64,000 nt of DNA, taken from assembly GCF_025854275.1 (NCBI RefSeq), contig NZ_CP107567.1, positions 4,836,001 through 4,900,000 on the forward strand, read 5' to 3'. A model generated the notes under the pieces. That model made no database searches, was not told where the DNA came from, and saw nothing but the letters and a program-made list of their open reading frames with translations. Below are positions 6,195 through 53,015 of the stretch, in pieces; the stretch's first letter is position 1, and each line of letters begins with the position of its first letter. The translations under genes and the position numbers were made by a program. This DNA comes from Streptomyces peucetius. Its GTDB lineage: Bacteria; Actinomycetota; Actinomycetes; Streptomycetales; Streptomycetaceae.

Positions 6195-6230
6195 GTCGCC
6201 GGGCCCCCGGTACAGCCCCCGTTGCAGGGC

Positions 6231-6272
6231 GACGGCGCCCGTCCTCTCCCCCGAGGGAGGACGGGCGCCGTC
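6231..6272 (+). terminator. Hairpin terminator after icd
   Basis: A perfect 16-bp inverted repeat (6231-6246 with 6257-6272) with a 10-nt loop, 37 nt past the icd stop. Confidence 0.85.
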
Positions 6273-7652
<1,380 letters not shown>

Positions 7653-7673
7653 CGCACCGCGCCTGCGGTTCTC

Positions 7674-7704
7674 CGCCCCCGGTGGCTTCGGCCACCGGGG
7701 GCGG
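7674..7704 (+). terminator. UUCG-loop terminator after mdh
   Basis: A 13-bp GC-rich stem (7674-7686 with 7691-7703) capped by a TTCG tetraloop, 22 nt past the mdh stop. Confidence 0.85.
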
Positions 7705-7799
7705 GCGCGTGTCGTTGGGGCTGCGGGGAATCCGTTCAGCGACGGACCCCGCCGGGGCCGGACGCAGCATTCCCCGTGTGGGCGTACACCTGCGGGGCG

Positions 7800-8465
7800 T
7801 CAGCCCGTGGCGGCGACCGTCGTTGCCACCGTGACCGCGACCATCGCGGCCTGCATGTTGCGGATCGCTTCACGTACGCTCTCGCCCGCCCACTGGCCGT
7901 CGGCGATCGCCGTCATCCGCGGGGCGACCTGCTTGCGCGGGAGGTCGGGGAAGGCCAGGCGGTGCAGCTTGGCGGAGTGGATCAGTGCGACCAGGCCGGC
8001 CGTGCGGTCGTCCGGGGCGGCGTCGTGGAGGACCACCGAGGCCAGGCGCTCGCGGAGTTCGCGCTCGGCCGCACCGTCCGCCTCGGGGTAGCGCCTCACC
8101 GGGAACAGGCCCAGCACCCTGTGCTGCTCCTCGGCCACCAGGCCACGCTCCCGCAGGCTGTCGATCGTGGCGCCGACAGCCTTGGAGTGGTCCTTCGTCA
8201 GCCAGTCGGTGACCTTCCGCGGCTTGCTGCGCTGGGCGGCCCAGGCCGCGAGCTGCTCCAGGCGGCCGTCGAGGAGGGCGACCCCGGTGGGGGCCTGGTC
8301 CGTGACGCGAACCCGGCCGTCGCTCACCGAGACCCGACCGGCCAGCACCAGGTCGAGCAGGATGCCGCCCGCCACGGCCCACCCGGCGGACTGCCGGTCC
8401 TTGGCCGCCCCGGACTCGTCGTCCAGCGACAGCAGCATGATCTCCTCGCCCAGCGTGACAGCCAT
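7800..8465 (-). CDS. GPP34 (GOLPH3/Vps74-like) domain protein
   Basis: A 221-residue cytosolic protein with a single GPP34 domain: N-terminal LGEEIMLLSLDDESG, the GGILLDLVLAGRVSVSDGRV segment, the LRERGLVAEEQHRVLGLFP segment and an Ala/Val-rich C-terminus. In eukaryotes GOLPH3/Vps74 bind phosphatidylinositol-4-phosphate; the actinobacterial relatives are abundant but uncharacterised and probably bind membranes or lipid headgroups. ATG 8465 has GAGGGG upstream. It converges on mdh and borders degraded genes at 8600-9246. Family assignment is sound, role unknown. Confidence 0.88.
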   Translation of the reverse strand: MAVTLGEEIMLLSLDDESGAAKDRQSAGWAVAGGILLDLVLAGRVSVSDGRVRVTDQAPTGVALLDGRLEQLAAWAAQRSKPRKVTDWLTKDHSKAVGATIDSLRERGLVAEEQHRVLGLFPVRRYPEADGAAERELRERLASVVLHDAAPDDRTAGLVALIHSAKLHRLAFPDLPRKQVAPRMTAIADGQWAGESVREAIRNMQAAMVAVTVATTVAATG

Positions 8466-8599
8466 GCGTGTTCCCCTCGGTCGGTAGTCCTTGATCAGTG
8501 GGACGAGGGGGCGGTCCGGTCAGTTCCCTTGTGGGCGCTCCGCCACTCACACCTGCCGGCAGTCGCGACAGTCGCGGCAGCACTTCGAGGTAGGCGCAC

Positions 8600-8945
8600 A
8601 TGTCCTCGTCACGCGGCTCGACCAGGGTGAAGGGACCGCCGAGCCCTGCGTGGCAACCGAGCGCGGTCGGCCTCACCTGGATCTCGATGTGCCGGTGCTG
8701 CCCGAGCTCCAGAAGATGGAGCAGCTGTGCGCGCATGACCTCCGGTTCGCCGACGGTCCGTTGCAGAACGACCTCTTCGAGGATGAAGCTCAGCGACGGT
8801 GCCGGCTGCCGCGTCAGCAGCTGCTGCCTGGCCGGCCGGGCCCCACCCGGCGTTCGATCTCCTCGTCGTCGAGCGCCGGAAGGTGCGCGACGTGCACGGC
8901 TCTCGCGTACTCCTCCATCTGCAACAGCCCGTCATGCGAACGGGG
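8600..8945 (-). pseudogene. Fragment of an XRE-family regulator (DUF5753 domain)
   Basis: The minus strand reads HDGLLQMEEYARAV and DDEEIERRVG in one frame, then, after a frameshift near 8845, ARQQLLTRQPAPSLSFILEE, VMRAQLLHLLELGQH, GPFTLVEPRDEDMCAYLE in another. This is the ligand-like DUF5753 domain that follows the helix-turn-helix in a large Streptomyces regulator family (expected text around PGLLQTEDYARAV). The helix-turn-helix half and the C-terminal end are missing, so it is truncated at both ends and shifted inside. Confidence 0.75.
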
Positions 8946-8949
8946 ACAG

Positions 8950-9246
8950 GTGCTCGCGACGGCGGCCCGAGCGCTGGAAGGCATCGGGTTCGAAGACGCC
9001 CAGAAGACGGTGCAGTTGCTCAGTGTCCACATCGGTCTGCTGGTGGCCCAGGTCGAGGAGCTGGCCCTCGCGCTTCCCGTCGGCGAACAGGGCCGCTGCC
9101 ACGCCCTCGCCTCGGTCGGCGAGGCGTGCCGCAAGACGCGCGCGGGCGGCGTGGCAGGGTCCGGCCCGCAGCGGCGGGCGGAACAACTGGCCCGCGTGTG
9201 CCGGGCGCTGCTGCACCACTGGGAGCGGCCCGGTCGGCGATGGCGC
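8950..9246 (+). pseudogene. Possible DUF6415-type gene remnant
   Basis: From a GTG at 8950 the plus strand reads LEGIGFEDAQKTVQLLSVHI, LLVAQVEELALALP and CHALASVGEACRK, ending in RVCRALLHHWE. The helical pattern resembles DUF6415 proteins, which often accompany XRE/DUF5753 regulators. The frame has no clear start or ribosome site and runs without a stop into the next gene, so it is probably a remnant lacking its N-terminus. Confidence 0.45.
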
Positions 9247-9258
9247 AGGATGGGGCGC

Positions 9259-9786
9259 ATGTCCTCGACCACCGCGATACCTGACGCCGTCCACCTGGCC
9301 ACGGACACCGGCCAGAACTCGGTGGTCGTATTCGGGATCGTGATCCTCGGCCTGCTGGTTCTGATCACGCTGTGCGTGTACCTCTTCCCGGCGTTCGCCG
9401 CGCGCGGCCGTTTCAGCGCACCGACCCTCGCCGGGACGCTGCGGGACGTGGCGCTGGTGTGTGTGACGGTGGCGCTGGCGATCTATCTGTTCGGCCTCAT
9501 GTGCACCGTCCGTCTGGAGAACGAGTGGTACACGTGCGGGCCACAGCGGTACGGGTACTCATCGCCGGTGGACAGGCCCGGCCTCGAGAACATGGAGGAC
9601 AGCCTGTTTCCCGTGAGCTCCGTCTGCCGCTGGTCGGACGGATACGCGTACGACTTCGTGCCGGCCTTCGTGAACCCCGTGGTCTTCACGCTGCTGTCCC
9701 TCGCGGCGATCGGGGTCATCGCGGCGGGTGCGGCACTGACGCACACGGGCGCCAGGCGGGATCTGGCAGCTCGGGATCGTCACTGA
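9259..9786 (+). CDS. Unknown membrane protein with Cys-containing extracytoplasmic loop
   Basis: From ATG 9259 a 175-residue protein of unknown family. Three membrane segments are visible: VVVFGIVILGLLVLITLCVY (about residues 23-43), DVALVCVTVALAIYLFGLMC (about 61-80), and a C-terminal helix (VFTLLSLAAIGVIAAGAAL). The loop between the last two is polar, aromatic and holds two Cys (in ENEWYTCGPQRYGY and SSVCRWSDGYAYD) that could form a disulfide. The upstream frame is open but belongs to the DUF6415-like debris, so the exact start is uncertain. Confidence 0.65.
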   Translation: MSSTTAIPDAVHLATDTGQNSVVVFGIVILGLLVLITLCVYLFPAFAARGRFSAPTLAGTLRDVALVCVTVALAIYLFGLMCTVRLENEWYTCGPQRYGYSSPVDRPGLENMEDSLFPVSSVCRWSDGYAYDFVPAFVNPVVFTLLSLAAIGVIAAGAALTHTGARRDLAARDRH

Positions 9787-12098: not shown

Positions 12099-13586
12099 GT
12101 GTCGGCAGTGCAAAAGACCATCCACGTGGGCGGAGAGTGGCTGACAGCCGCCTCCGGCGCCACGCGCGAGATCATCGACCCTGTCGACGCGACCACGTTC
12201 GCCGTCGTCGCGGAGGGTGGCCTCGCGGACACGGACGCCGCCGTCGCCGCCGCGCGTGACGCGTTCGACAACGGGCCCTGGCCCTCGACCCCGGTCGCCG
12301 AGCGCGCGGCCCTGCTGCGACGGGTCGCGGCCCTCCTCGAGCGGGACCGGGAGAAGATCGGCGCCCTCGAGAGCCTGGACGCGGGCAAGACCCTCGAAGA
12401 GGGGCGCGTCGACGTCGACTGCGTGCGCGACGCCTTCGTCTACTTCGCGGACCTCGTCATGAACGAGAGCGGCGGACGCGTCGTCGACGCGGGGTCCGAC
12501 GACATCCACAGCGTGGTGGTGCACGAGCCGCTCGGGGTCTGCGCTCTGATCACGCCGTGGAACTACCCACTTCTGCAAGCGAGTTGGAAGATTGCCCCGG
12601 CTCTGGCCGCGGGCAACACTTTTGTCGTCAAGCCCAGTGAGATCACCCCACTGACCACCGTCGCGCTGATCGGTCTGCTGGTCGAGGCCGGGCTGCCCGC
12701 CGGCGTCGCGAACATCGTCACCGGTGCCGGCGACCCCGTCGGTGCCCGGCTGGCCGACCACCCCGGCGTGGACCTCGTGTCCTTCACCGGAGGGCTCGCC
12801 AGCGGCACCAAGGTCGCCCGCGCGGCCGCCGACAGCGTCAAGAAGGTCGCCCTCGAACTCGGCGGCAAGAACCCCAACGTCGTCTTCGCCGACGCCTGCA
12901 CCACCCCCGAAGGCTTCGACACCGCCGTCGACCAGGCCCTCAACGCCGCGTTCATCCACAGCGGCCAGGTCTGCTCCGCCGGATCGCGGCTCATCGTCGA
13001 GGAGTCGCTGCGCGAGCGGTTCGTCGCCGAACTCGCCCGCAGGGCCGAGAAGATCCGCATCGGCCGCGGCACCGACTCGGGCGTCGAGTGCGGTCCCCTC
13101 GTCTCCGCGCAGCAGCTCGCCAAGACCGAGGACTTCGTCGCCTCCGCGCTCGCGGAAGGCGCGGTCCTGCGGGCCGGCGGCGAGAAGCCCGAGGGCCCCG
13201 GATACTTCTACCGGCCCACCGTCCTCGACCACTGCCACCGCTCCATGCGCGTGATCCGCGAGGAAATCTTCGGCCCGGTCCTGACCGTCGAGACCTTCCG
13301 CACCGAGGAAGAGGCCCTCGCCCTCGCCAACGACACCGAGTACGGCCTCGCCGGCGCCGTGTGGACGGCCGACGCCGGACGCGCCCGGCGGATGGCCCGG
13401 CGGATGCGGCACGGCACCGTCTGGATCAACGACTTCCACCCCTATCTGCCGCAGGCGGAGTGGGGCGGCTTCGGCAAGTCCGGCATCGGACGCGAGCTGG
13501 GGCCCACCGGACTCGCCGAGTACCGCGAGGCGAAGCACATCTACCAGAACCTCGCCCCGCGCCCCGTGCGCTGGTTCGCGGGCTGA
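12099..13586 (+). CDS. betB: Betaine-aldehyde dehydrogenase-like enzyme
   Basis: A 495-residue NAD(P)-dependent aldehyde dehydrogenase, full length for the family, starting at GTG 12099 (VSAVQKTIHVGGEWL). Motifs: LGVCALITPWNYPLLQASWK, FVVKPSEITPLT, the catalytic Glu in LELGGKNPNVVF and the catalytic Cys in IHSGQVCSAGSRL, and the C-terminal GKSGIGRELGPTGLAEYREAKHI. As first gene of the betaine operon it most likely oxidises betaine aldehyde to glycine betaine after the GMC enzyme. The next gene starts 19 nt downstream. Aldehyde dehydrogenases are hard to assign by sequence alone; the neighbours make this choice likely. Confidence 0.88.
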   Translation: MSAVQKTIHVGGEWLTAASGATREIIDPVDATTFAVVAEGGLADTDAAVAAARDAFDNGPWPSTPVAERAALLRRVAALLERDREKIGALESLDAGKTLEEGRVDVDCVRDAFVYFADLVMNESGGRVVDAGSDDIHSVVVHEPLGVCALITPWNYPLLQASWKIAPALAAGNTFVVKPSEITPLTTVALIGLLVEAGLPAGVANIVTGAGDPVGARLADHPGVDLVSFTGGLASGTKVARAAADSVKKVALELGGKNPNVVFADACTTPEGFDTAVDQALNAAFIHSGQVCSAGSRLIVEESLRERFVAELARRAEKIRIGRGTDSGVECGPLVSAQQLAKTEDFVASALAEGAVLRAGGEKPEGPGYFYRPTVLDHCHRSMRVIREEIFGPVLTVETFRTEEEALALANDTEYGLAGAVWTADAGRARRMARRMRHGTVWINDFHPYLPQAEWGGFGKSGIGRELGPTGLAEYREAKHIYQNLAPRPVRWFAG

Positions 13587-13604
13587 GCCAAGGAAACGCA
13601 CACC

Positions 13605-15152
13605 ATGACCGACCACATCCACGAGTACGACTATGTCGTCGTCGGCGGCGGCACCGCCGGCTCGGTGATCGCCTCCCGCCTCACCGAGGACCCCGGTGTC
13701 ACCGTGGCCGTCATCGAGGGCGGCCCGAGCGACGTCGGCCGTGACGACGTGCTGACCCTGCGCCGCTGGATGGGCCTGCTCGGCGGGGAGCTCGACTACG
13801 ACTACCCGACCACCGAGCAGCCCCGCGGCAACTCGCACATCCGGCACAGCCGTGCCCGCGTGCTCGGCGGCTGCTCGTCGCACAACACCCTCATCGCGTT
13901 CAAGCCGCTGCCGTCCGACTGGGACGAGTGGGCCGAGGCCGGCGCCGACGGCTGGGACGCCGCGGCCATGGACCCGTACTTCCACAAGCTGCGCAACAAC
14001 ATCGTCCCCGTCGACGAGGCCGACCGGAACGCGATCGCCCGCGACTTCGTCGATGCCGCGCAGACCGCGCTCGAAGTGCCGCGCGTCGAGGGCTTCAACA
14101 AGAAGCCCTTCCACGAGGGCGTCGGCTTCTTCGACCTCGCGTACCACCCGGAGAACAACAAGCGTTCGTCGGCGTCGGTCGCCTACCTGCACCCCTTCCT
14201 CGACCGGCCGAACCTGCACATCGCCCTGGACACCTGGGCGTACCGGCTGGAGCTGGACGGGACGCGGGCGACGGGCGTGCACGTCCGCGCCAAGGACGGC
14301 GAGGAACGGGTCGTACGGGCGCGGCGCGAGGTACTGGTGTGCGCGGGCGCCGTCGACACGCCCCGGTTGCTGATGCACTCCGGCATCGGGCCGCGCGCCG
14401 ACCTGGAGAGGCTCGGCATACCCGTCGTCCACGACCTGCCGGGTGTCGGCGAGAACCTGCTCGACCACCCGGAGTCGGTCATCGTCTGGGAGACCCACGG
14501 GCCCATCCCGGAGAACTCCGCGATGGACAGCGACGCCGGACTCTTCGTACGGCGGGACCCCGAGTCCGAGGGCCCCGACCTGATGTTCCACTTCTACCAG
14601 ATCCCCTTCACCGACAACCCGGAGCGCCTCGGCTACGAACGCCCCGCGCACGGTGTGTCGATGACCCCGAACATCCCCAAGCCCCGCAGCCGCGGCCGGC
14701 TCTACCTGACCAGCGCGGACCCCGAGGTCAAGCCGGCGCTGGACTTCCGTTACTTCACCGACGAGGACGACTACGACGGCCGCACCCTCGTCGACGGGAT
14801 CAGGATCGCCCGCGAGATCGCTGCGCGGGAGCCGCTCGCCGGCTGGCTGAAGCGCGAGGTCTGCCCGGGACCGGAGGTCACCTCCGACGAGGACATCAGC
14901 GAGTACGCGCGCAAGGTCGCGCACACCGTCTACCACCCGGCCGGAACCTGCCGGATGGGTGCCGTCGACGACGAACTCGCCGTCGTCGCACCGGACTTGA
15001 GGATCCGGGGCCTCGAAGGCGTCCGGATCGCCGACGCGTCCGTCTTCCCGACGATGACGGCTGTCAATCCGATGATCGGCGTCCTCATGGTCGGGGAGAA
15101 GTGCGCCGACCTGTTGGGCGCGGAAGCCGACAAGAGGGGCGGGAACCGATGA
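13605..15152 (+). CDS. GMC oxidoreductase, choline dehydrogenase/oxidase-like
   Basis: A 515-residue FAD enzyme of the glucose-methanol-choline family. The dinucleotide-binding motif [17 protein letters not shown] lies at residues 10-26; GMC signature 1 is [19 protein letters not shown]; signature 2 is the [17 protein letters not shown] region. The C-terminal catalytic region reads [15 protein letters not shown] and ends [16 protein letters not shown]. It probably converts choline to betaine aldehyde, feeding the upstream dehydrogenase. The end overlaps the ABC ATPase start by ATGA, implying translational coupling. Other alcohols are possible substrates. Confidence 0.87.
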
Positions 15153-16396
15153 AGTCAGATCCCATGAAGCAGGCAGAGTCGATGGAGTCGGAGCCGAAGT
15201 CGCAGTCCGAGCCGCAGTCGGAGCCGAAGGCCGGGACGAACGCGTCGGACGCGAACGTCTTTGTGACCGAGGTGTCGGACGCCGGCGTGCCGGAAACGGC
15301 GGAGCCGGTCGCGAAGGCCGGCGGACCCGACGATGCCGCCGACGACGGCGGGCAGCCCCTCGTCTTCTCCGTCCGTGACCTGTGGAAGGTCTTCGGCCCG
15401 AAGGCGGCCAAGGTCCCGGCCGACCCGGAGCTCGCCGCCCTGAACCCCGCCGAGCTGCGCGAACGCACCGGCTGCACCGCCGCCGTACGTGACGTCTCCT
15501 TCGACGTCCGCAAGGGCGAGGTGTTCGTCGTCATGGGCCTGTCCGGCTCCGGCAAGTCGACGCTGGTGCGCTGCCTGACCCGGCTGATCGAGCCGACGTC
15601 CGGGTCGATCGCCATCGACGGCGAGGACGTGCTCTCCATGGACACCACGCGGCTGCGGGAACTGCGCCGCCACCGTGCCTCCATGGTCTTCCAGCACTTC
15701 GGTCTCCTGCCGCACCGGTCGGTCCTCGACAACGTCGCCTACGGCCTGGAGATCCAGGGCATGGGCAGGGCCGCGCGCCGCTCGCGCGCCGCCGAGGTCG
15801 TGGCGAAGGTCGGCCTGGAGGGCCTGGAGCACCGCAGGCCCGGCCAGCTGTCCGGCGGTCAGCAGCAGCGTGTCGGACTGGCACGTGCCCTTGCCGTCGA
15901 CCCCGAGGTGCTGCTCTTCGACGAGCCGTTCAGCGCGCTCGACCCGCTGATCCGCCGCGACATGCAGGAGGAGGTCGTGCGGCTGCACCGCGAGGAGGGC
16001 CGCACGATGGTCTTCATCACCCACGACCTGAGCGAGGCGCTCAAGCTGGGCGACCGCATCGCGCTGATGCGCGACGGCCGGATCGTGCAGCTCGGTACCC
16101 CGGAGGAGATCGTGGGCGCCCCCGCCGACGACTACGTACGGGACTTCGTCCGTGACGTGCCGCGCGAGCAGGTCATGACCGTGCGCACCGCCATGCGCCC
16201 CGCCGTCGACGGCGACGGCGAGGACGGCCCGGCGCTCGCCCCCGGCGCGACCGTCTTCGAGGCGATCGAGGCCGTGGCCCGCACCGGACAGACCGCGCGC
16301 GTCGTCGAGGGCGGCCGCTGTCTGGGCGTCGTCGGCCATGCGGACCTGCTGGCGGTCGTCGCGGGCACGACCGCCCCCAAGGGGGTGGCCGCGTGA
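15149..16396 (+). CDS. Glycine betaine/choline ABC transporter ATPase (ProV/OpuAA-like)
   Basis: A 415-residue ATPase whose ATG at 15149 overlaps the preceding stop. An acidic, low-complexity N-terminal extension of about 65 residues (repeated SEP and [14 protein letters not shown] sequence) is followed by the ABC domain: Walker [13 protein letters not shown]-loop [21 protein letters not shown], signature [15 protein letters not shown], Walker [13 protein letters not shown], switch His in [19 protein letters not shown]. The C-terminal part after [12 protein letters not shown] resembles a shortened CBS regulatory region, used in this family to sense ionic strength. It energises the permease encoded next. 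Confidence 0.92.
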
Positions 16397-16448
16397 TCCA
16401 CGGACCGCACCCGGCGCCGCGCCGGCACACCGACGGGCGGTGGCCCCG

Positions 16449-18434
16449 ATGACCGCCGCCGTGTCCGCGCCCGCCGCGGAGAAGAAGAACATCACCGGAC
16501 CGTCGCTGCGCGACGTCCTGCGCCACCCCGTCAAGGGCAAGCTGCTGGCGCTCGCCGCGCTCGCGGTCGTCCTCGTGCCCGCCGGGATCATGCTGTGGGG
16601 CAGCGGCACCTGGCCGGCGGCGCTGCACGTCGACATCTCCGGACCGCTCGACGACGCCAACCGGTGGGTGATCGACAACCGCGACTCCCACCCGCTCTTC
16701 CTCTACTTCCTGCTGCACCTGTCCAACACCGCCACCGACGCGGTCGGCGGCGTGTACGACGTGCTGCACTCGATGGGCTGGCTCGGAGTGCTCGCCGTCG
16801 GCGTCCTCGTCGCCTGGCGCGCCGCCGGACTCGGCCGCGCGGGCGCCAAGGTCGCCGCGACCGCCTTCGGCGCGTTCGCGCTGTGCGGGTTCCTGGGCAT
16901 GTGGGACGCCACGCTGCTGACCATCGCGCTGATGGTCGTCGCCGTGGCGCTGGCCGCGCTGCTCGGTGTGCTGATCGGTCTGGCGGCCGGCCTGTCCGAC
17001 CGGATCAACCGCGCGCTGCGGCCGGTGCTGGACACGATGCAGGTCCTGCCGGCCTTCGCGTACCTGCTGCCGTTCGTGCTGGTCTTCGGCACCGGCACAC
17101 CGGCCGCGCTGTTCTGCACCGTCATCTACGCCGCCCCGCCCATGGCCCGTCTCACGGCGCTCGGCCTGCGCGGCGCCGACCCGTCGGTGCTCGAGGCCTC
17201 CGCGTCGCTCGGCGCGAGCCCGTGGCAGCGTCTGCGGACCGCCCGGCTGCCGCTCGCCCGCCGGCAGATGCTGCTCGGCCTCAACCAGACGATCATGATG
17301 GCGCTGTCGATGGTCGTCATCGCCGCCCTCGTCGGCGCCGGCGGCCTCGGTGAAGAGGTCTACTCGGCACTCTCCACCGTCGACGTCGGCAAGGCGCTCA
17401 CCGCCGGTATCCCGATCGTGCTGATCGCCATCTGGCTCGACCGCACGACGGGGGCCGCCGGTGACCGCATCGGGAGCAGCGTCCCGGGCGGCGGCCTGCT
17501 GCACGGCCGCTCCGGCTGGGCCCTGGTCGCGGCGGGTGTCGCCGTGGCCGTGTCGGCCCGCTTCCTGATCGGCGGGGCGTGGCCCGAGGCCTGGACGTTC
17601 AACATCTCCACGCCCGTGAACAAGGCGCAGAGCTGGGTCACCGAGCACTTCTCGTCCGGCATCCCGGTGCTCGGCGGCACAGAGGTCTGGTCGGAGCAGT
17701 TCACCCTGTGGATCCTCAACCCGCTGCGGGACGGCCTGCTCTGGCTGCCCTGGTGGTCGGTGCTGCTGATCGTCGCGGCCCTGGCCTGGGTCGTCGGCAC
17801 CTGGGCGACCGCGCTGACGGCCACGCTGGCCATGTCGGCGATCGGTGTGCTCGGCGTGTGGACGAAGTCCCTGAACACGCTCTCGCAGGTGCTGGCCGCG
17901 CTGGTCGTCACGCTGGTCCTGGGCGTGCTCGCGGGCATCGTGTGTGCCCGCGCGGGACGCCTCGAACGCCTGTTGCGGCCCGTTCTCGACGCCATGCAGA
18001 CGATGCCGCAGTTCGTCTATCTCATCCCGGTCGTGGCGCTCTTCGGCGTCACCAGGGCCTCGGCCATCATCGCCGCGGTCGTGTACGCGCTGCCCGCGGT
18101 CGTGCGCATCACCGCACAGGGCCTGCGCGAGGTCGACCCGGCGGCCATGGAGGCGGCACGTTCACTCGGCGCCTCGACCAGGCAGCAGCTCTTCCAGGTC
18201 CAGCTGCCGCTCGCCCGGCCCGCCCTTCAGCTCGCCGTCAACCAGGGCGTCGTGCTGGTCCTCGCGGTGGTCGTCGTCGGCGCACTCGTCGGCGGTGGGG
18301 CGCTCGGCTACGACGTGGTCAAGGGCCTGTCCCGCGGCGAGATGGGCCTCGGCATGACCGCCGGCCTGGCGATCGTCTGCCTCGGCCTCGTCCTCGACAG
18401 GGTCACCCAGCCCGCCGCCCGCAAGCGTCACTGA
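16449..18434 (+). CDS. Double-length betaine ABC permease (two ProW modules fused)
   Basis: A 661-residue membrane protein containing two complete ProW-type permease modules in one chain. Module 1 (about residues 75-340) has VLDTMQVLPAFAYLLPFVLV and an EAA loop LEASASLGASPWQRLRTARL; module 2 (about 440-655) has LDAMQTMPQFVYLIPVVALF and EAA loop MEAARSLGASTRQQLFQVQL. Each carries its own N-terminal extracytoplasmic segment (near AALHVDISGPLDDANRW and EAWTFNISTPVNKAQSW), so the fusion replaces the usual homodimer. ATG 16449 is used; GTG 16440 is in frame. It lies 52 nt after the ATPase gene. Confidence 0.9.
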   Translation: MTAAVSAPAAEKKNITGPSLRDVLRHPVKGKLLALAALAVVLVPAGIMLWGSGTWPAALHVDISGPLDDANRWVIDNRDSHPLFLYFLLHLSNTATDAVGGVYDVLHSMGWLGVLAVGVLVAWRAAGLGRAGAKVAATAFGAFALCGFLGMWDATLLTIALMVVAVALAALLGVLIGLAAGLSDRINRALRPVLDTMQVLPAFAYLLPFVLVFGTGTPAALFCTVIYAAPPMARLTALGLRGADPSVLEASASLGASPWQRLRTARLPLARRQMLLGLNQTIMMALSMVVIAALVGAGGLGEEVYSALSTVDVGKALTAGIPIVLIAIWLDRTTGAAGDRIGSSVPGGGLLHGRSGWALVAAGVAVAVSARFLIGGAWPEAWTFNISTPVNKAQSWVTEHFSSGIPVLGGTEVWSEQFTLWILNPLRDGLLWLPWWSVLLIVAALAWVVGTWATALTATLAMSAIGVLGVWTKSLNTLSQVLAALVVTLVLGVLAGIVCARAGRLERLLRPVLDAMQTMPQFVYLIPVVALFGVTRASAIIAAVVYALPAVVRITAQGLREVDPAAMEAARSLGASTRQQLFQVQLPLARPALQLAVNQGVVLVLAVVVVGALVGGGALGYDVVKGLSRGEMGLGMTAGLAIVCLGLVLDRVTQPAARKRH

Positions 18435-21110: not shown

Positions 21111-22583
21111 ATGACGGATTCACGGGCCACTTCCGGCGCCGACACCACCTTCGCCGCCTTCAGGGCGGTCGGCGTGGATCTCCATCTCGAACCGCGCGGG
21201 CCGGGGCTGCGCCAGGGGCTGACGGACGCCCTGCGGGACGCGGTGCGCAGCGGGAGGCTCGCGCCGGGGGTCCGGCTGCCGTCGTCCCGTTCGCTCGCCG
21301 CCGACCTCGGGATCGCCCGCAACACCGTCGCCGACGCCTACGCGGAGCTGGTGGCGGAGGGCTGGCTCACGGCACGGCAGGGGTCGGGTACCCGGGTGGC
21401 ACGCCGTTCGGCGCCGCGCAAGGCCGCCACCGGCACCGTCAGGGCGCGCCCGGCGCGCGGCCGGCCCGCGTACAGCCTGCTCCCCGGCAGCCCCGACCTG
21501 GCGTCCTTCCCGCGTTCGGAGTGGCTCAAGGCGGCCCGCAGAGCGCTGGGCGCCGCACCCCACGAGGCCTTCGGCTACGGGGACCCACGCGGCCGCGTCG
21601 AGCTGCGGACCGTGCTCGCCGACTACCTGGCACGGGCCCGTGGCGTGTACGCCGACCCCGAGCGCATCGTGATCTGCGCGGGCTTCGTCCACGGGCTCAT
21701 GCTGATGGGCAAGGTGCTGCGACAGCGACGGGTCAGGGACGTGGCCGTCGAGTCCTACGGACTCGATGTGCACCGGAACCTGCTGACCGACGCCGGGCTG
21801 CGCGTCCCGGCACTGCCCCTCGACGAACTGGGCACCGACACCGCCGGGTTGGGCGAGCACGACCTGCGGAACGTCGGCGCCGTGCTCATGACGCCCGCCC
21901 ACCAGTTTCCGGTGGGGCTGCCGCTGCACCCCGACCGGCGGGCGGCCGCCGTCGACTGGGCGCGCCGGTCGGGCGGCGTGATCCTCGAGGACGACTACGA
22001 CGGGGAGTTCCGTTACGACCGTCAGCCCGTCGGCGCGCTCCAGGGCCTCGATCCGGAGCGCGTCGTCCACCTGGGCACGGCGAGCAAGTCGCTGGCCCCC
22101 GGGCTGCGGCTGGGGTGGATGGTGCTGCCTCAGGACCTCGTCGACGAGGTGCTGGAGGCGAAGGGCGGCCCGGAATGGATGTCGAGCGCACCGGACCAGC
22201 TCACCCTTGCGGAGTTCATCACCTCCGGTGCGTACGACCGGCATGTGCGGGGCATGCGCCTGCGCTACCGGCGCCGCCGCGACGAGCTCGTGCGGCACCT
22301 CGCCGCGCACGCACCCGGCGTCCGGGTGAGCGGTATCGCGGCCGGGCTGCACGCGGTGCTCGAACTGCCACCGGGGACCGAGCAGTCGGCCGTCCGGGCG
22401 GCGGCGTGGCAGGGCCTGGCGGTCGAGCCGCTCGGCCGCTTCAGGCACCCGGACACCGCACCGGGCCGGGACGCACTCGTCGTCGGCTACGCGACCCCGC
22501 CGGACAGCGCCTGGGCAGGCGCGCTCGACGCGCTGTGCCGGTCGATGGGCCAGGGCCTTTCGGTGTCCGGCGATCCGGACTGA
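21111..22583 (+). CDS. MocR/PdxR-type GntR regulator with aminotransferase domain
   Basis: A 490-residue regulator. An N-terminal GntR winged helix-turn-helix (LRDAVRSGRLAPGVRLPSSR, then DLGIARNTVADAYAELVAEG) precedes a fold-type I PLP domain with the aminotransferase landmarks EDDYDGEFRYDRQPVGALQG and the PLP lysine region HLGTASKSLAPGLRLGWM. MocR proteins use PLP or amino-acid adducts as effectors and often act on a divergent gene, here the AhpD-like gene 47 nt away. ATG 21111 is the first start; the effector is unknown. Confidence 0.92.
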   Translation: MTDSRATSGADTTFAAFRAVGVDLHLEPRGPGLRQGLTDALRDAVRSGRLAPGVRLPSSRSLAADLGIARNTVADAYAELVAEGWLTARQGSGTRVARRSAPRKAATGTVRARPARGRPAYSLLPGSPDLASFPRSEWLKAARRALGAAPHEAFGYGDPRGRVELRTVLADYLARARGVYADPERIVICAGFVHGLMLMGKVLRQRRVRDVAVESYGLDVHRNLLTDAGLRVPALPLDELGTDTAGLGEHDLRNVGAVLMTPAHQFPVGLPLHPDRRAAAVDWARRSGGVILEDDYDGEFRYDRQPVGALQGLDPERVVHLGTASKSLAPGLRLGWMVLPQDLVDEVLEAKGGPEWMSSAPDQLTLAEFITSGAYDRHVRGMRLRYRRRRDELVRHLAAHAPGVRVSGIAAGLHAVLELPPGTEQSAVRAAAWQGLAVEPLGRFRHPDTAPGRDALVVGYATPPDSAWAGALDALCRSMGQGLSVSGDPD

Positions 22584-23102
22584 TCCGGCCGGGCGGGTCC
22601 GCCGGGCCGAAAGACCGGGGCCGGGTCGTGTCCGGGCGCCGGGACCTGCCCGATGCCGGGCCGCCGGGCCGCCGGGCCGTCGTACCGGTCCGATGCCGGG
22701 CCGCCGGCCGTCGCGTTGCCGCCCCGGCCGTGCCTGCCGCGCCATCGGGCCCACCCGCGCCGCCACGCCGTCCCGGCGTCCGTCGGCCGGTCAGCGTGGT
22801 GCGATCCGTTCCAGGCCCCAGTCCAGGTCCTCCTCGCTTCCCCTCTCCCGCCGCGGCGGGACCCGCGTACTCGGCCGAAGTCCACAGCGGGCGCATCCCG
22901 GACGGCGAGCCGCCGGGGCGCTGTCGGCGCTCGCGCCATCGGCTGCTGGACTCCATGTCCGGCTCCAGCCGGACGTGGAGCCCGGGGTGAAATTCTCCCC
23001 AGCAGCCATCTTCAGCCAAGAATCGGTACATTTGTGCCAGGGTGAGCTGCCGCTCAGCCGACGCTGCTGCTTGCGGTCATCCGCCTCCCGAGCGAGGAAG
23101 AC
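22584..23102. other. Gap of about 520 bp holding gene debris upstream of the symporter-phosphatase
   Basis: No intact gene. On the minus strand, 22791-22838 reads the last 14 residues and stop of a RocD-like protein (see next entry). Farther right, minus-strand text LAQMYRFLAEDGCWGEF at about 22990-23045 looks like a real protein fragment of unknown family, running up to the start of the next gene. The rest is Gly/Pro/Arg-rich noise. Confidence 0.5.
22791..22838 (-). pseudogene. Remnant of a rocD 3' end
   Basis: The frame ends EEDLDWGLERIAPR followed by a stop, matching the end of intact RocD 4 kb away (KEDLDWGLDRISAVLTA). A 21-nt stretch (22813-22833) is identical to 26862-26882 in the same orientation. 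Upstream sequence does not match RocD. Confidence 0.7.
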
Positions 23103-26100
23103 ATGTCCGACCTGAGCGCGCCGGTCCTGGTCACGTTCATCGTCTATGTGGTGGCCGTGGTCGCGGTGGGAGTCTGGGCGTACGCCCGGACCCGGACCTT
23201 TGCCGATTTCGCACTGGGTGGCCGCAGGCTCAGCGCGCCGGTCGCGGCGCTCTCCGCCGGCGCGAGCGACATGTCCGGCTGGCTGTTCCTCGCCCTCCCC
23301 GGAGCCGTCTATGCGGCCGGCATCGGCGCGAGCTGGATCGCAGTGGGCCTGGCCGCCGGAACCTATCTGAACTGGCTGCTCGTCGCCCCGAGACTGCGCA
23401 CGTACACCGAGCGGGCCGGCAACGCCGTCAGCCTGTCGGCCTATCTGGAGGAGCGTTTCGAGGACCGCACCCGGATGCTGCGGATGGTCTCGGCCGCCGT
23501 GACCGTCGTGTTCTTCACCGTCTACGTCGCCAGCGGTCTGGTGGCCGGAGGGCTGCTGTTCGAGCAGGTCTTCGACGTCCCCTTCGAACTCGGGGTGCTG
23601 CTGACCGCCCTGGTCATCGTGACCTACGCGTGTCTCGGCGGCTTCCTCGCCGTCAGCCTGACACACGTCATGCAGGGCACCTTGATGTTCGTCGCCCTGC
23701 TGGTGCTCCCCCTGGTCGGCGTCACGGCGCTCGGGGGCTTCGGTTCCCTGGACGAATCCCTCGACAGCAAGACGCCGAGCCTGCTGGACGTCGGGGCGGA
23801 GGCCAATTTCGTCGACGGCCGGTGGACGGCGGGCGGGTCGCTCGGCGCCGTGGCGATCGTGTCGCTGCTCGCCTGGGGCCTCGGCTACTTCGGCCAGCCG
23901 CACATCCTGGCCCGCTTCATGGGCATCCGCAGTACCCGGGCGGTCCCGGCGGCCCGGCGCATCGGAACGGTCTGGGTGCTGGTCGTGCTCGCCGGCGCCA
24001 CGCTCGTGGGCCTCGTGGGGGTCGCGCGGCTCGACACGCCCCTGAACAACCCGGAGACGGTGTTCATCGTCCTGAGCGAGACCCTGCTCAACCCCTGGGT
24101 CGCCGGGCTGATGCTGGTCGCCGTGCTGGCCGCGATCATGTCGACGGCGGACAGCCAGCTCCTGGTGTCGTCCGTCGCCCTCACGGAGGACTTCTACCGC
24201 GCGTTCCTCAGCCGGCGCGCGTCGGACCGGACGCTGGTGTGGGTGGGCCGCGGGGCCGTGGTGGTGGTGATCCTCGTCGCTTGTGTGATCGCGCTCGGCG
24301 GCGGCGGAGTACTGAACATCGTCGCCTACGCCTGGGCCGGTTTCGGCGCGGCGTTCGGGCCGGTCGTCCTGCTGTCGCTGTACTGGCCGCGGATGACCTG
24401 GGCGGGGGCCATGGCCGGGATCGTGTCGGGCGCGGCCACGGTGCTCCTGTGGGACCGCATCAATCCGCTGCTGGGGCCGCTCGAGTCGGACATCTACGAG
24501 ATGGTTCCGGGCGTGCTCGTCGCCACGGTCGCCGCGCTGGTCTTCGGCAGGTTCGTCGGCCGGCCGCCGCAGCGAGCCTTCTGGCGGATGCCGGGGGGCG
24601 GGGTCAGCCAGCTGCTGCTCGTACCGTTCCTGTCCGACGCGCCGGTCGGTGTGGCGGTCCTCGACACCGACCTGCGCTACGTCTGGGTGAACAAGATCCT
24701 GGGACGGCTGCTCCCCCCGGACCGAAGGCTGGGGCGCCAGGTGAAGGAGGTGTTGCCGCAGCCCGTGGCAGAGGCTTTCGAGGAGAGGATGCGGACCGTC
24801 CTGCGGACCGGGGCTCCGGTGATGGACCACGAGTTCCGCGCCGTCGATCATCCCGCGCCCTACCGGGAGCGGGCGTACTCGGCCTCGTTCTTCGGCATGA
24901 GGGACCGGCGCGGTCGGCAGGTGGGCGTCTGGTACATGATCATCGACGTCACCGAGCGCCGACGTGCACAGGAGCGCCTCGCCCTCCTGAACGAGGCCAG
25001 TGCCCGCATCGGCAGCGCGCTGGATGTGGAGCTGACGGCGCAGGAACTGGCCGACAACGCCGTGCCCGCTCTCGCCGACTTCGTCGCCGTCGACCTGCTG
25101 GAGTCGGTCATCAGGGGCGAGGAGCCCGCTCCCGGGCCGGTCGACCTCGGCCCGGTCATCCGCCGCGCGGGGCAGAGATCGGTCCGCAAGGGCAACCCGG
25201 AGGCGCGGCTGGCCGTGGGGGAGGTGGTCCAGCGTGCCCCGTCCTCGCCCGTCGCGCGCTGCCTGCTGGAGAGCAGGACCCTGGTGGAGGACCTGGAGCG
25301 CTCGCCCGAGGAATGGGTGGCCATGGACCCGTCGCTGGGCTCGGCCATCCGCCGGTTCGACCTCCGCTCGGTGATGGTGGTGCCGGTACGGGCCCGTGGC
25401 GTCACGCTGGGCGTGGCGACGTTCGTCCGGTCCGGGCCTCGCACGTGGCCCTTCGAGGAGGACGACGTACGTCTCGCCGAGGAACTCGTCTCCCGTGCCG
25501 CCGTGTCCATCGACAACGCGCGCCGCTTCACCCGTGAGCGGACCGCTGCCCGGTCGATGCAGCGCTATCTGCTGCCGCAGGAAGTGACCGGCGGATCCGC
25601 GCTGGACGTGGCGTCCTGGTACTGCCCTGCGGACGCGCCGACCGGCGTGGGCGGTGACTGGTTCGACGTGATCCCCCTGTCCGGGGCACGGGTGGCGTTG
25701 GTCGTCGGCGACGTGGTCGGGCACGGCATCAACTCCGCGGCGACGATGGGGAGGCTCCGCACGGCGGTGCGCACTCTCGCCAATCTGGACTTTCCCCCCG
25801 ACGAACTGCTGGCCCACCTGGACGACCTGGTCATCGGCCTCATGCAGTCGTCAGGCAGCGACGAGGCGGCCCGGGCCGAGAACGAGAGTGTGAGCGCCGC
25901 GATGATGGGTGCCACCTGCCTGTACGCCGTGTACGACCCGGTCACCGGGATGTGCTGTATGGCCAGGGCCGGTCACCCCCCGCCGGTGATCGTCGCCCCC
26001 GACGGCACCGTCGAGTTCCTGGACCTGCCCGCCGGACCGCCGATCGGCCTCGGTTCCCTGCCCTTCGAGTCCGTGGAACTGGAACTGGCCGAGGGCAGCC

Positions 26101-26681
26101 TGATCGGGCTCTACACCGATGGCCTCGTTCGGGCCCCGAACCGGGACATCGACGTCGGCCTCTCCCGGTTGAGGGAACGGCTCATGGTGCCCGGCCCGTC
26201 GCTGCGGGAGATCGGCAACAACGTCGTCGACGCACTGCTGGCCGTCCCGCCGTCCGATGACGCCGCCCTGCTCCTCGCCCGGACCCGTCTGCTGGGATCC
26301 GACCGGGTCGCCTCCTGGGACCTGCCCTCGGACCCCGCTGCCGTTGCAGATGCCCGCAGCGTCGCCGCCCGGCAACTGGCGGCATGGGGCTTGGATGACC
26401 TGACGTTCACCACGGAGCTGATCGTCAGCGAGCTGGTCACCAACGCCATCCGTCACGCCACCGGGCCCATCGTCCTGAAGCTGATCCGGGACCGCGCCCT
26501 GATCTGCGAAGTGTCCGACGCCAGCAGCACCTCGCCCCGCCTTCGTCATGCCCGGACCACGGACGAGGGAGGGCGGGGGCTGCTGATCGTCGCGCAGCTC
26601 GCCCGGCGTTGGGGGACGCGTTACACGAACGCCGGGAAGATCATTTGGACGGAGCAGGGCTTCCCCGACCTGCTCGACTGA
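23103..26681 (+). CDS. PutP-type sodium/proline symporter fused to PAS-GAF-PP2C phosphatase-HATPase
   Basis: A 1192-residue fusion from ATG 23103 with an AGGAAG site. Residues 1 to about 490 are a complete SSS-family symporter close to PutP: SAGASDMSGWLFLALPGAV places the Na+/proline residues Asp56 and Ser58 as in E. coli PutP (Asp55, Ser57); STADSQLLVSSVALTEDFYR and IVAYAWAGFGAAFGPVVLLS are nearly PutP text. PAS (about 505-630, SDAPVGVAVLDTDLRYVWVN, ending IIDVTERRRAQERL), GAF (640-800), SpoIIE/PP2C phosphatase (815-1050, GVGGDWFDV, VVGDVVGHG, YTDGLVRAP, PSDDAALL) and an RsbW-like HATPase (1070-1192, ELIVSELVTNAIRHA, EGGRGLLIVAQL) follow. Known relatives such as CbrA couple SSS domains to histidine kinases; a phosphatase/anti-sigma output is different. 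It converges on rocD. Likely a proline-responsive membrane regulator; whether it transports is inference. Confidence 0.93.
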   Translation: MSDLSAPVLVTFIVYVVAVVAVGVWAYARTRTFADFALGGRRLSAPVAALSAGASDMSGWLFLALPGAVYAAGIGASWIAVGLAAGTYLNWLLVAPRLRTYTERAGNAVSLSAYLEERFEDRTRMLRMVSAAVTVVFFTVYVASGLVAGGLLFEQVFDVPFELGVLLTALVIVTYACLGGFLAVSLTHVMQGTLMFVALLVLPLVGVTALGGFGSLDESLDSKTPSLLDVGAEANFVDGRWTAGGSLGAVAIVSLLAWGLGYFGQPHILARFMGIRSTRAVPAARRIGTVWVLVVLAGATLVGLVGVARLDTPLNNPETVFIVLSETLLNPWVAGLMLVAVLAAIMSTADSQLLVSSVALTEDFYRAFLSRRASDRTLVWVGRGAVVVVILVACVIALGGGGVLNIVAYAWAGFGAAFGPVVLLSLYWPRMTWAGAMAGIVSGAATVLLWDRINPLLGPLESDIYEMVPGVLVATVAALVFGRFVGRPPQRAFWRMPGGGVSQLLLVPFLSDAPVGVAVLDTDLRYVWVNKILGRLLPPDRRLGRQVKEVLPQPVAEAFEERMRTVLRTGAPVMDHEFRAVDHPAPYRERAYSASFFGMRDRRGRQVGVWYMIIDVTERRRAQERLALLNEASARIGSALDVELTAQELADNAVPALADFVAVDLLESVIRGEEPAPGPVDLGPVIRRAGQRSVRKGNPEARLAVGEVVQRAPSSPVARCLLESRTLVEDLERSPEEWVAMDPSLGSAIRRFDLRSVMVVPVRARGVTLGVATFVRSGPRTWPFEEDDVRLAEELVSRAAVSIDNARRFTRERTAARSMQRYLLPQEVTGGSALDVASWYCPADAPTGVGGDWFDVIPLSGARVALVVGDVVGHGINSAATMGRLRTAVRTLANLDFPPDELLAHLDDLVIGLMQSSGSDEAARAENESVSAAMMGATCLYAVYDPVTGMCCMARAGHPPPVIVAPDGTVEFLDLPAGPPIGLGSLPFESVELELAEGSLIGLYTDGLVRAPNRDIDVGLSRLRERLMVPGPSLREIGNNVVDALLAVPPSDDAALLLARTRLLGSDRVASWDLPSDPAAVADARSVAARQLAAWGLDDLTFTTELIVSELVTNAIRHATGPIVLKLIRDRALICEVSDASSTSPRLRHARTTDEGGRGLLIVAQLARRWGTRYTNAGKIIWTEQGFPDLLD

Positions 26682-26701
26682 GCGAGCGACCGCGCCGCGC
26701 G

Positions 26702-26755
26702 AACACGCCTCCGACCAAGAACACGCCTCCGACCAAGAACACGCCTCCGACCAAG
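26702..26755 (+). repeat. Three tandem copies of an 18-bp unit
   Basis: AACACGCCTCCGACCAAG is repeated exactly three times (26702-26719, 26720-26737, 26738-26755) just after the symporter-phosphatase stop. One frame would encode NTPPTK repeats, but no gene uses it. Confidence 0.95.
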
Positions 26756-26830: not shown

Positions 26831-28036
26831 TCAGGCCGTCAGTACGGCGCTGATCCGGTCGAGGCCCCAGTCCAGGTCCTCCTTGCTGATCACCAGCGGC
26901 GGGGCGATCCGGATCGTCGGCCCGTGCGTGTCCTTCACCAGCACCCCCAGATCCACCAGCTTCTCCGAGACCTCCCGGCCGGTGCCGTGCTCAGGAGCGA
27001 TGTCCACACCTGCCCACAGACCGCGCCCGCGCACCGCAGTCACCGCGCCGCTGCCCAGCAGCGAGCCCAGTTCACGGTGGAGATGCTCACCCAGGTCGGC
27101 GGCGCGCCGCTGGAACTCACCGGTGCGCAGCATCGCCATGACCTCCAGGGCGACGGCGCAGGCCAGTGGATTCCCGCCGAACGTGGAACCGTGCTCACCC
27201 GGCCGGTGGACACCGAGCACCTCGGCCGAGGACACCACGGCGGACACCGGTACCACGCCGCCGCCCAGGGCCTTGCCGAGCACATACATGTCCGGCACCA
27301 CGTCCTCGTGTTCGCAGGCGAAGGTCCGTCCCGTCCGGCCCAGCCCCGACTGGATCTCGTCCGCGACGAACAGTACGTTCCGCTCACGGGTGATCCTGCG
27401 GACGCCGGCGAGGTAGCCGGCGGGCGGGACCAGCACGCCCGCCTCGCCCTGCACGGGCTCCAGCAGTACGGCGACCGTGTTCTCCGTGACCGCCGACTCC
27501 AGCGCGGTCAGGTCCCCGTACGGAACGATCTCGAAGCCCGGTGTGTACGGCCCGTAGTCGGCCCGGGCCTCCGGGTCGGTCGAGAAACTGATGAGCGTGG
27601 TCGTCCGGCCGTGGAAGTTGTCGGACGCCACGACGATCTTTGCCATGTTGGCCGGCACCCGCTTGACCCGGTAGCCCCATTTGCGGGCGGTCTTGACGGC
27701 CGTCTCCACTGCCTCGGCGCCGGTGTTCATCGGCAGGACCATCTCCATGCCGCACAGTTCCGCGAGCTGGGCGCAGAAGTCGCCGAACCGGTCGTGGTGG
27801 AAGGCGCGGGAGGTCAGCGTGACCCGTTCGAGCTGCGCCTTGGCCGCCTCGATCAGCCGGCGGTTGCCGTGGCCGAAGTTGAGTGCCGAGTACCCGGCGA
27901 GCAGGTCGAGGAAGCGGCGGCCCTCGACATCCGTCATCCAGGCGCCGTCCGCCGTGGCGACGACGACCGGCAACGGGTGGTAGTTGTGCGCGCTGTGCGC
28001 CTCGGCAGCGGCGAAGGCGGATGTCGTTCTCGACAC
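26831..28036 (-). CDS. rocD: Ornithine aminotransferase
   Basis: A 401-residue PLP enzyme converting ornithine plus 2-oxoglutarate to glutamate semialdehyde (leading to proline) and glutamate. GTG 28036 is chosen: it has GGAG at suitable spacing and yields the usual N-terminus SRTTSAFAAAEAHSAHNYHP; the frame extends upstream without homology. Motifs: LLAGYSALNFGHGNRRL, PMNTGAEAVETAVKTARKWG, NFHGRTTTLISFSTDPEA, FVADEIQSGLGRTGRTFACE, the PLP Lys in YVLGKALGGGVVPVSAVV, and GEHGSTFGGNPLACAVALEV. It converges on the proline-symporter fusion, which suggests a shared proline/ornithine theme. Confidence 0.95.
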   Translation of the reverse strand: MSRTTSAFAAAEAHSAHNYHPLPVVVATADGAWMTDVEGRRFLDLLAGYSALNFGHGNRRLIEAAKAQLERVTLTSRAFHHDRFGDFCAQLAELCGMEMVLPMNTGAEAVETAVKTARKWGYRVKRVPANMAKIVVASDNFHGRTTTLISFSTDPEARADYGPYTPGFEIVPYGDLTALESAVTENTVAVLLEPVQGEAGVLVPPAGYLAGVRRITRERNVLFVADEIQSGLGRTGRTFACEHEDVVPDMYVLGKALGGGVVPVSAVVSSAEVLGVHRPGEHGSTFGGNPLACAVALEVMAMLRTGEFQRRAADLGEHLHRELGSLLGSGAVTAVRGRGLWAGVDIAPEHGTGREVSEKLVDLGVLVKDTHGPTIRIAPPLVISKEDLDWGLDRISAVLTA

Positions 28037-52681: not shown

Positions 52682-53015
52682 GAACGGGGCCCGGCTTTCG
52701 GTGAGTCGGATCGATTCTGCTGACGTCGAACCGGGCGGTTATACACCACGCGGAGTGCGCCACGCGAGCGATGGGACAAAAGGTGCGGAGCAGCGGCGTT
52801 TCCGGGGTCCGTTCGCCCTGAATGTCCGTGGGGTTGACGGGACGTCACTCCAGTGATCGATAATCCGCTGCCGCGCCCGTGAGCTGGCCTTTCGCCTGCT
52901 CGCGGGTGGTAGTGGCAGTCATGCTCCAAGCCGGGCGGAATCCCCTGCTCCGGCTCGTTCGGCGTGCCCGTTTCGCCTGCGGCGGGGCCGGCCGCCGATG
53001 TCGAAAGGCAACGAC
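52682..53015. other. Intergenic region with likely RHS promoter
   Basis: No gene seen. It separates the divergent MmpS-like gene and the RHS toxin gene; a promoter candidate lies at 52834-52864. Confidence 0.5.
52834..52864 (+). promoter_or_regulatory. Possible RHS gene promoter
   Basis: TTGACG (52834-52839) and GATAAT (52859-52864), each one base from consensus, with a 19-bp spacer. Confidence 0.4.

Follow-up and report, generated by a model that had tools for sequence, protein, structure and literature searches.

Can a solute transporter act directly on the partner-switching machinery of stress sigma factors? This question is raised by a gene of Streptomyces peucetius located in a stretch of 64,000 nucleotides (contig NZ_CP107567.1, positions 4,836,001 to 4,900,000), hereafter called the window, which lies at 4.84–4.90 Mb of a genome that consists of a single contig of 8.05 Mb. 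The gene starts with an ATG at 23103, has its stop at 26681 and reads as one uninterrupted frame of 1192 amino acids (aa). A first-pass annotation of the window had proposed that it joins a complete PutP-like symporter to PAS, GAF, SpoIIE/PP2C and RsbW-like HATPase domains in one chain. Pfam returned the domains in the claimed order, namely SSF at residues 36–443 (E-value 1e-88), PAS_4 at 511–621 (1.4e-18), GAF at 707–803 (2.9e-8), SpoIIE at 861–1061 (1.6e-49) and HATPase_c_2 at 1074–1181 (7.8e-12). The model TIGR02121, "sodium/proline symporter PutP", was passed with 579.5 bits at a cut-off of 515.5, and a second PutP model, NF011948, stayed below its cut-off (460.6 against 955). PADLOC found no defence-system match for the fusion. 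As set out below, the fusion is real, conserved and apparently evolved once, and it is uncharacterised as far as the literature searched extends. The coordinates of all features are collected in Table 1.

To map the distribution of the SSS + SpoIIE + HATPase architecture, a check suggested by the first-pass annotation, PutP was searched in 392 genomes of the genus, including the source genome, with E-values up to 1e-60 and three candidates scored per genome. PutP was found in 44 genomes at 52 places, which comprised 33 fusion-length frames (1193 aa or more, 74–100% identical) and 19 shorter ones (511–764 aa, 64–76% identical). The fusion thus occurs in 33 of the 392 genomes, of which seven also carry a standalone PutP and 26 have no other PutP found; a further 11 genomes have standalone copies only. 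Samples of the class (394 genomes), family (200) and phylum (296), which overlap and were searched at E 1e-60, 1e-60 and 1e-40 respectively, showed no fusion outside the genus, and the five further carriers seen in the class and family samples all belong to it. Four apparent fusions (in G1126, G1038, G1028 and G576) were rejected, as their long stop-to-stop frames owe their length to open sequence in front of ordinary PutPs about 500 aa long. No plasmid location was seen either: 56 plasmid records hold a PutP relative, every one less than 60% identical. Among the 80 loci listed, at least four belong to named carriers: Streptomyces sp. C10-9-1, Streptomyces sp. XY006, S. toyocaensis NRRL 15009 and S. 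echinatus CECT 3313.

Each of the 38 full-length orthologues, one from the window and the others from 37 further loci, is a closed single frame of 1185–1235 aa. We calculated the ratio of nonsynonymous to synonymous substitution rates (dN/dS) between the window and five relatives, which gave 0.19–0.33 for the whole protein and less than 0.52 for every domain. Six other pairs were also compared, five of which lay at 0.12–0.26. Both halves of the protein are under purifying selection.

Over 479 aligned residues the fused symporter is identical to Escherichia coli PutP at 239 positions (50%). We checked 23 E. coli positions, among them residues which we take to form the Na2 site and the proline pocket, and at 19 positions the window and all 38 fused copies have the E. 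coli residue; A53, D55, M56, S57, W59, Y140, W244, Y248, P252, A337, S340 and T341 are identical in 38 of 38. The symporter is complete in the sense of the first-pass annotation: D55 and S57 of E. coli correspond in the alignment to Asp56 and Ser58, and the motifs it quoted, including STADSQLLV, are present. D55 and Y248 are given as such residues of E. coli PutP (Henriquez et al., 2021; PMC7918813) and Ser340/Thr341 as the Na2-site pair (PMC7096432); here and below, papers are cited for those of their passages that concern the point at hand. Since the other SSS matches of the source genome are only 24–31% identical to the fused symporter, it is the sole PutP of this genome. Its predicted function is to bind and import proline.

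The residues of the regulator half are similarly conserved. The PP2C aspartates and the N, D and G residues of the HATPase, presumed to be the metal-binding positions and the N, G1 and G2 boxes, are kept in 38 of 38 fused copies, except D1006, which is kept in 37. In front of the phosphatase, residues 807–832 are the stretch closest to the window across the 38 copies (0.87), and an AlphaFold2 model places a helix at 786–823 with low confidence. Residues 786–832, conserved and predicted to be helical, fit a linker of the kind that switches PP2C phosphatases. The first-pass annotation had also set the output apart from that of CbrA-type regulators, and we agree: phosphatase and kinase-like motif residues are kept, and no HisKA domain occurs in the Pfam list of the fusion protein (E 0.01). 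There is no room for a STAC domain, as about 25 residues separate the last transmembrane (TM) helix from the PAS domain, compared with 72 aa for STAC in CbrA; this absence is judged by length, Pfam being the sole model search that covers STAC.

To trace the origin of the fusion we built a tree for each half; both trees were quick, without bootstrap and with some long rows. In the symporter tree (40 fused, 24 standalone Streptomycetaceae and 21 other rows) the fused rows form one group beside the standalone copies, with a support of 100 in the Shimodaira–Hasegawa-like approximate likelihood ratio test (SH-aLRT), and all 24 standalone Streptomycetaceae PutPs lie outside the fused clade. The tree of the C-terminal half (38 fused rows and 31 paralogues) likewise unites the fused rows in one group with SH-aLRT 100. 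The source genome contains many symporter-less paralogues of the C-terminal half, the best of which is 58% identical, and near paralogues (for example L002 and L014) are 56–62% identical across this half. Four near paralogues that we examined (813–825 aa) have the order PAS-PAS_4-GAF-SpoIIE-HATPase_c_2; PutP therefore occupies the slot of the first PAS domain. The trees of both halves fit an apparently single origin, and the fusion appears to have arisen once, by a sensor swap in which PutP replaced the first PAS of a PAS-PAS-GAF-PP2C-HATPase regulator. SpoIIE genes next to the fusion were considered as donors and rejected: of the 15 neighbours in this cluster, the 11 with more than 400 aa were put in a tree, and none grouped with the fused rows and their nearest paralogues. 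Separately, a broken SpoIIE/HATPase gene lies in pieces at 476219–477349 of contig C1 in genome G000, 62–70% identical to the C-terminal half of the fusion.

Based on these features we propose that the sensor swap produced a membrane transceptor, in which the proline state of PutP would set the PP2C/kinase output; we consider this narrowly probable. PutP would bind and import proline, and the 26 of 33 carriers with no other PutP found would be left without any if transport were lost. The conformational state of PutP would be passed through the short junction to PAS, GAF and the helix at about 786–823, which would set the dimerisation of the PP2C domain. In RsbU-type PP2C phosphatases, helical linkers act as the switch by bringing the phosphatase domains together in pairs, a mechanism also modelled for OsaC and Rv1364c (PMC12143880). 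The active phosphatase would dephosphorylate at least one STAS anti-anti-sigma protein, thereby freeing SigB-type sigma factors, and the HATPase would reset the switch by re-phosphorylating the STAS protein or by holding the sigma factor; OsaC binds SigB via its kinase domain (PMC10117811). The likely use would be an osmotic or stress response tuned to proline supply, because proline is a major streptomycete osmolyte; it is what accumulates most in Streptomyces under salt (PMC10117811). The sequence fixes neither an on nor an off sign. A broader version of the proposal, a working proline importer with partner-switching output that was built once by PAS exchange, moves between genomic sites as a self-contained unit including a promoter-like element, and may employ His188 instead of the usual aspartate for ion coupling, is put forward tentatively, as plausible but short of probable.

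The setting for such an output is present in the source genome, which has 49 SpoIIE matches (some of them pieces of one gene), 11 STAS (PF01740) and 12 STAS_2 (PF13466; 11 above the cut-off) matches, the latter two families at about 13 places. These numbers agree with the 44 PP2C, 45 RsbW and 17 RsbV homologues given for S. coelicolor (PMC8346170). The partner of the fusion is probably one or several of the few STAS proteins. As many SpoIIE proteins face few STAS proteins, the fusion would feed a common hub alongside many other inputs.

Several observations weigh against this proposal. In the symporter half, four of the 23 positions differ from E. coli PutP, namely Asp187 (His188 in the fusion), Gly63 (Ala64), Asp262 (Arg276) and Cys344 (Ser351). 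In the regulator half, one fused copy (L200; G288, 5849–9556) carries D1006N and H874Y in its phosphatase, and the pair L200/L233 has a dN/dS of 0.45 (PAS 0.64, GAF 0.74). An AlphaFold2 prediction from an alignment of 20 sequences was good for the SSS half and poor past residue 490 (mean predicted local distance difference test score, pLDDT, 55.1), and because of this poor part the model is not used as an argument. A weak extra hydropathy peak at residues 501–522, past the last PutP helix, leaves the topology of the junction unproved. As similarly weak peaks occur within the soluble domains (757–775 and 854–872), we take PAS and the rest to be cytoplasmic. No constant STAS or sigma factor neighbour accompanies the fusion, STAS being absent from the 25 of 80 neighbour families listed. 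Furthermore, 348 of the 392 genus genomes are without any PutP at E 1e-60, so that the function of the fusion is not general in the genus. Finally, the CbrA kinase remains functional when its SLC5 domain is absent, and L-histidine had no significant effect on its activities (PMC7096432). Because this kinase neither needs SLC5 nor showed a significant response to the substrate, coupling between transport and output is not to be assumed.

This last point leads to the alternative of a tethered bifunctional protein, in which PutP transports and anchors, and PAS and GAF read their signal as they do in the soluble paralogues. Both PAS_4 and GAF are retained in the fusion, the nearest paralogues sense by PAS-PAS-GAF alone, and the activity of the CbrA kinase without SLC5 would be the precedent. 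We regard this alternative as credible but less likely, since the first PAS was swapped out and PutP was not merely prefixed, and since the junction is short and conserved. Moreover, no break-up of the fusion is seen among the 24 standalone Streptomycetaceae PutPs of the tree, although the gene moves about.

The direction of control could also be the reverse, with the regulator half acting on the transporter and PAS/GAF or phosphorylation gating proline uptake under stress. The phosphatase and ATPase catalytic residues, needless for gating alone, are kept in nearly all copies, and transport by CbrA is independent of its output domains (PMC7096432), which makes this direction improbable. What speaks for it is that the Na2 positions are kept, unlike in CbrA, which is without the Ser340/Thr341 pair (PMC7096432), and that 26 of 33 carriers have no other PutP found.

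Alternatively, the SSS half might bind proline or sodium and no longer move substrate. The replacement of Asp187 by His in the fused copies would agree with a transport-dead sensor, as would the fusion-specific Gly-to-Ala change at 64, which lies in the same helix as Na2 and pocket residues and occurs in all 40 fused copies and in one of 122 other PutPs. His188 (codon 23664–23666) is present in 40 of 40 fused copies and in 23 of 24 standalone Streptomycetaceae PutPs, and Asp in all 98 other PutP rows, among which at least one organism was entered twice. Since nearly all the standalone Streptomycetaceae copies have His, the change was probably in place before the fusion arose and does not point to a loss of transport; together with the kept Na2 positions, this makes a dead transporter very improbable. 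In CbrA a TM6 lysine occupies the Na2 site and is proposed to protonate and deprotonate during the cycle (PMC13022988); CbrA, and with it Lys196 as a residue to compare with His188, is not among the 19 solved-structure matches.

The idea that a frameshift or assembly error merged two genes, set beforehand by the first-pass annotation as refuting its reading, is of negligible probability and is excluded by the 38 closed frames in different genomes, the two concordant single-group trees and a dN/dS well below 1 in every domain against five relatives.

We then compared the fusion with known systems. The first-pass annotation had taken the architecture to be uncharacterised as far as it knew, and this holds in part. 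Proteins with SSS, GAF, PP2C_SIG and HATPase_c domains were already listed in print for Actinobacteria in 2021 (Henriquez et al.; PMC7918813, section 5.1.1 and figure 6 legend), with Actinospica acidiphila, Streptomyces griseorubens, S. albus and S. gilvosporeus as examples based on SMART. Matched by description only, they share the SSF/GAF/PP2C/HATPase_c-type architecture in an actinobacterium, and in those parts of the review they are listed without an account of substrate type, origin, distribution or residues. Experiments on the SSS-PP2C-HATPase fusion family were not found in the literature searched, whose coverage leaves out most subscription journals, and among the literature matches listed no study of a PP2C-linked transporter besides that review was apparent from title or start of abstract.

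CbrA, CrbS and RpuS resemble the fusion in having an SLC5 transporter at the N terminus, covalently joined to PAS and a signalling output; the fusion differs in having neither STAC nor HisKA, in keeping the Na2 pair and in its PP2C and RsbW-like output. OsaC of Streptomyces and Rv1364c of Mycobacterium tuberculosis are likewise multi-domain stress-sigma regulators with PAS (OsaC also GAF), PP2C and an anti-sigma-type kinase, and among solved structures that of Rv1364c (3ke6) matches the C-terminal half best. Both are without a transporter; in OsaC the kinase domain is N-terminal (PMC10117811), and Rv1364c has its own anti-anti-sigma domain (PMC12143880). Compared with E. coli PutP, the C terminus of the fused symporter runs on into a regulator, and compared with the PAS-PAS-GAF-SpoIIE-HATPase paralogues of Streptomyces, PutP holds the slot of a PAS domain.

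Transporters that double as sensors are few, and the experimentally studied SLC5 cases that we met in the sources cited (CbrA, CrbS and RpuS) end in histidine kinases. The fusion family places a sensor of the SLC5 kind on the machinery of stress sigma factors and, with related regulators that have PAS or PutP in one slot, amounts to a natural swap experiment. According to PMC10117811, in its passages on the subject, no osmoprotectant uptake system is characterised in Streptomyces; the fusion gene is a direct candidate for such uptake and for its link to sigma control. If the broader version of our proposal is true, the fusion would be the first transporter known with partner switching as its output, a nutrient or osmolyte pump that commands SigB-type sigma factors directly.

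Table 1. Features of the fusion gene and its surroundings (positions in the window)
Feature	Position	Strand	Details
putP-PAS-GAF-SpoIIE-HATPase fusion gene	23103..26681	+	1192 aa; open reading frame and Pfam/NCBIfam
PutP-type SSS/SLC5 symporter domain	23103..24590	+	residues 1-496; Pfam SSF, TIGR02121 above cut-off
Short conserved junction GRPPxRAFWRxPGGG, last TM helix to PAS	24555..24629	+	residues 485-509; alignment, hydropathy
PAS_4 domain	24633..24965	+	residues 511-621; Pfam
GAF domain	25023..25520	+	residues about 641-806; Pfam GAF 707-803; GAF_2 641-804 in orthologue L104
Predicted helical linker into phosphatase	25458..25598	+	residues 786-832
SpoIIE/PP2C phosphatase	25599..26288	+	residues about 833-1062; D852/D855/D870/D1006/D1052/D1053 present
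RsbW-like HATPase_c_2	26322..26645	+	residues 1074-1181; N1114, D1139, G1156-G1159 present
TCGGTACATTTGT promoter-like element, consensus TCkGTAsATTTrT	23023..23035	+	begins 80 bp before start
Block common to window and G025 fusion locus	22992..26706	+	gene and about 110 bp upstream
Copy of part of rocD 3' end, upstream of fusion	22803..22838	-	33/36 bases
MocR/PdxR-like regulator, incidental neighbour	21111..22583	+	
rocD (aminotransferase class III), incidental neighbour, convergent	26831..28036	-	

Upstream of the gene we found a promoter-like element. With up to four mismatches, 36 of 40 fused loci have TCTGTACATTTGT starting 46–118 bp upstream, and in 31 loci its start lies at 80–89 bp; with up to three mismatches it is found in 27 of 40, and four loci (L200, L216, L231 and L233) are without it at up to four. 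Among 25 standalone putP genes two reach four mismatches and none reaches three. When upstream regions were shuffled, 13 of 2000 matched at up to three mismatches and 89 of 2000 at up to four, a control that flatters the element because the consensus was derived from these same sequences. Its fixed position amid unrelated flanks is a better sign, and the TASATT core of the element resembles a -10 box. The whole genome of 8.05 Mb holds one exact copy, at the fusion, and one site with one mismatch, which precedes a gene for a lectin-type secreted protein (assigned by eye). The second site is meaningless, since a reversed-pattern control gave as many sites (one and one), and the idea of a regulon was dropped. 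A Sigma-B-type promoter, represented by what we take to be its pattern, was matched in two of 38 upstream regions (160 bp) and was judged to be chance.

The flanks of the fusion are variable, the commonest shared neighbour cluster being present in 10 of 38 loci. The 76 immediate neighbours, called by length and by G+C at codon positions and in some cases fragments, include eight SpoIIE, six Usp, two sigma-70 region 4 and one Aminotran_3 gene, the last being rocD of the window. The first-pass annotation had linked the fusion to rocD as a gene whose product feeds proline synthesis. It does adjoin the fusion convergently, but the functional link is rejected: Aminotran_3 is adjacent in one of 38 loci, that of the window, and in relatives MocR and rocD pair up while the fusion lies elsewhere. 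In G157 and G030 the MocR–rocD gap is 122 and 140 bp and the fusion lies on another contig; in G025 a gap of 2.7 kb separates the two genes, and the fusion lies megabases off. The partial copy of the rocD 3' end, which scored 99 in local alignment where 200 shuffles reached 70 at most, is a possible scar of the insertion of the fusion between MocR and rocD.

Synonymous divergence from G025, G157 and G030 is 0.17, 0.27 and 0.43 for the fusion, 0.63, 0.52 and 0.56 for rocD and 0.61, 0.62 and 0.61 for MocR; for glyA it is 0.375 (G157) and 0.365 (G030). These values suggest lateral movement, with G025 as the clearest case, but are no proof of it.

Some minor observations concern the surroundings. 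In L217, L220, L227 and L234 a SpoIIE gene of another group lies upstream of the fusion; it directly adjoins on the same strand in L220, L227 and L234 and is PAS-rich by Pfam in L220 and L227, the two tested. Within the window, a very long open frame of 2898 aa occupies 52998–61694 on the forward strand. At 12099–18434 there are betaine-aldehyde-dehydrogenase-like and choline-dehydrogenase-like genes, both under their model cut-offs, an ABC ATPase recognised by eye and a permease of 698 aa that contains two BPD_transp_1 stretches and passed a choline ABC permease model. These genes may form a choline/betaine osmolyte cluster at a distance of a few kb from the fusion.

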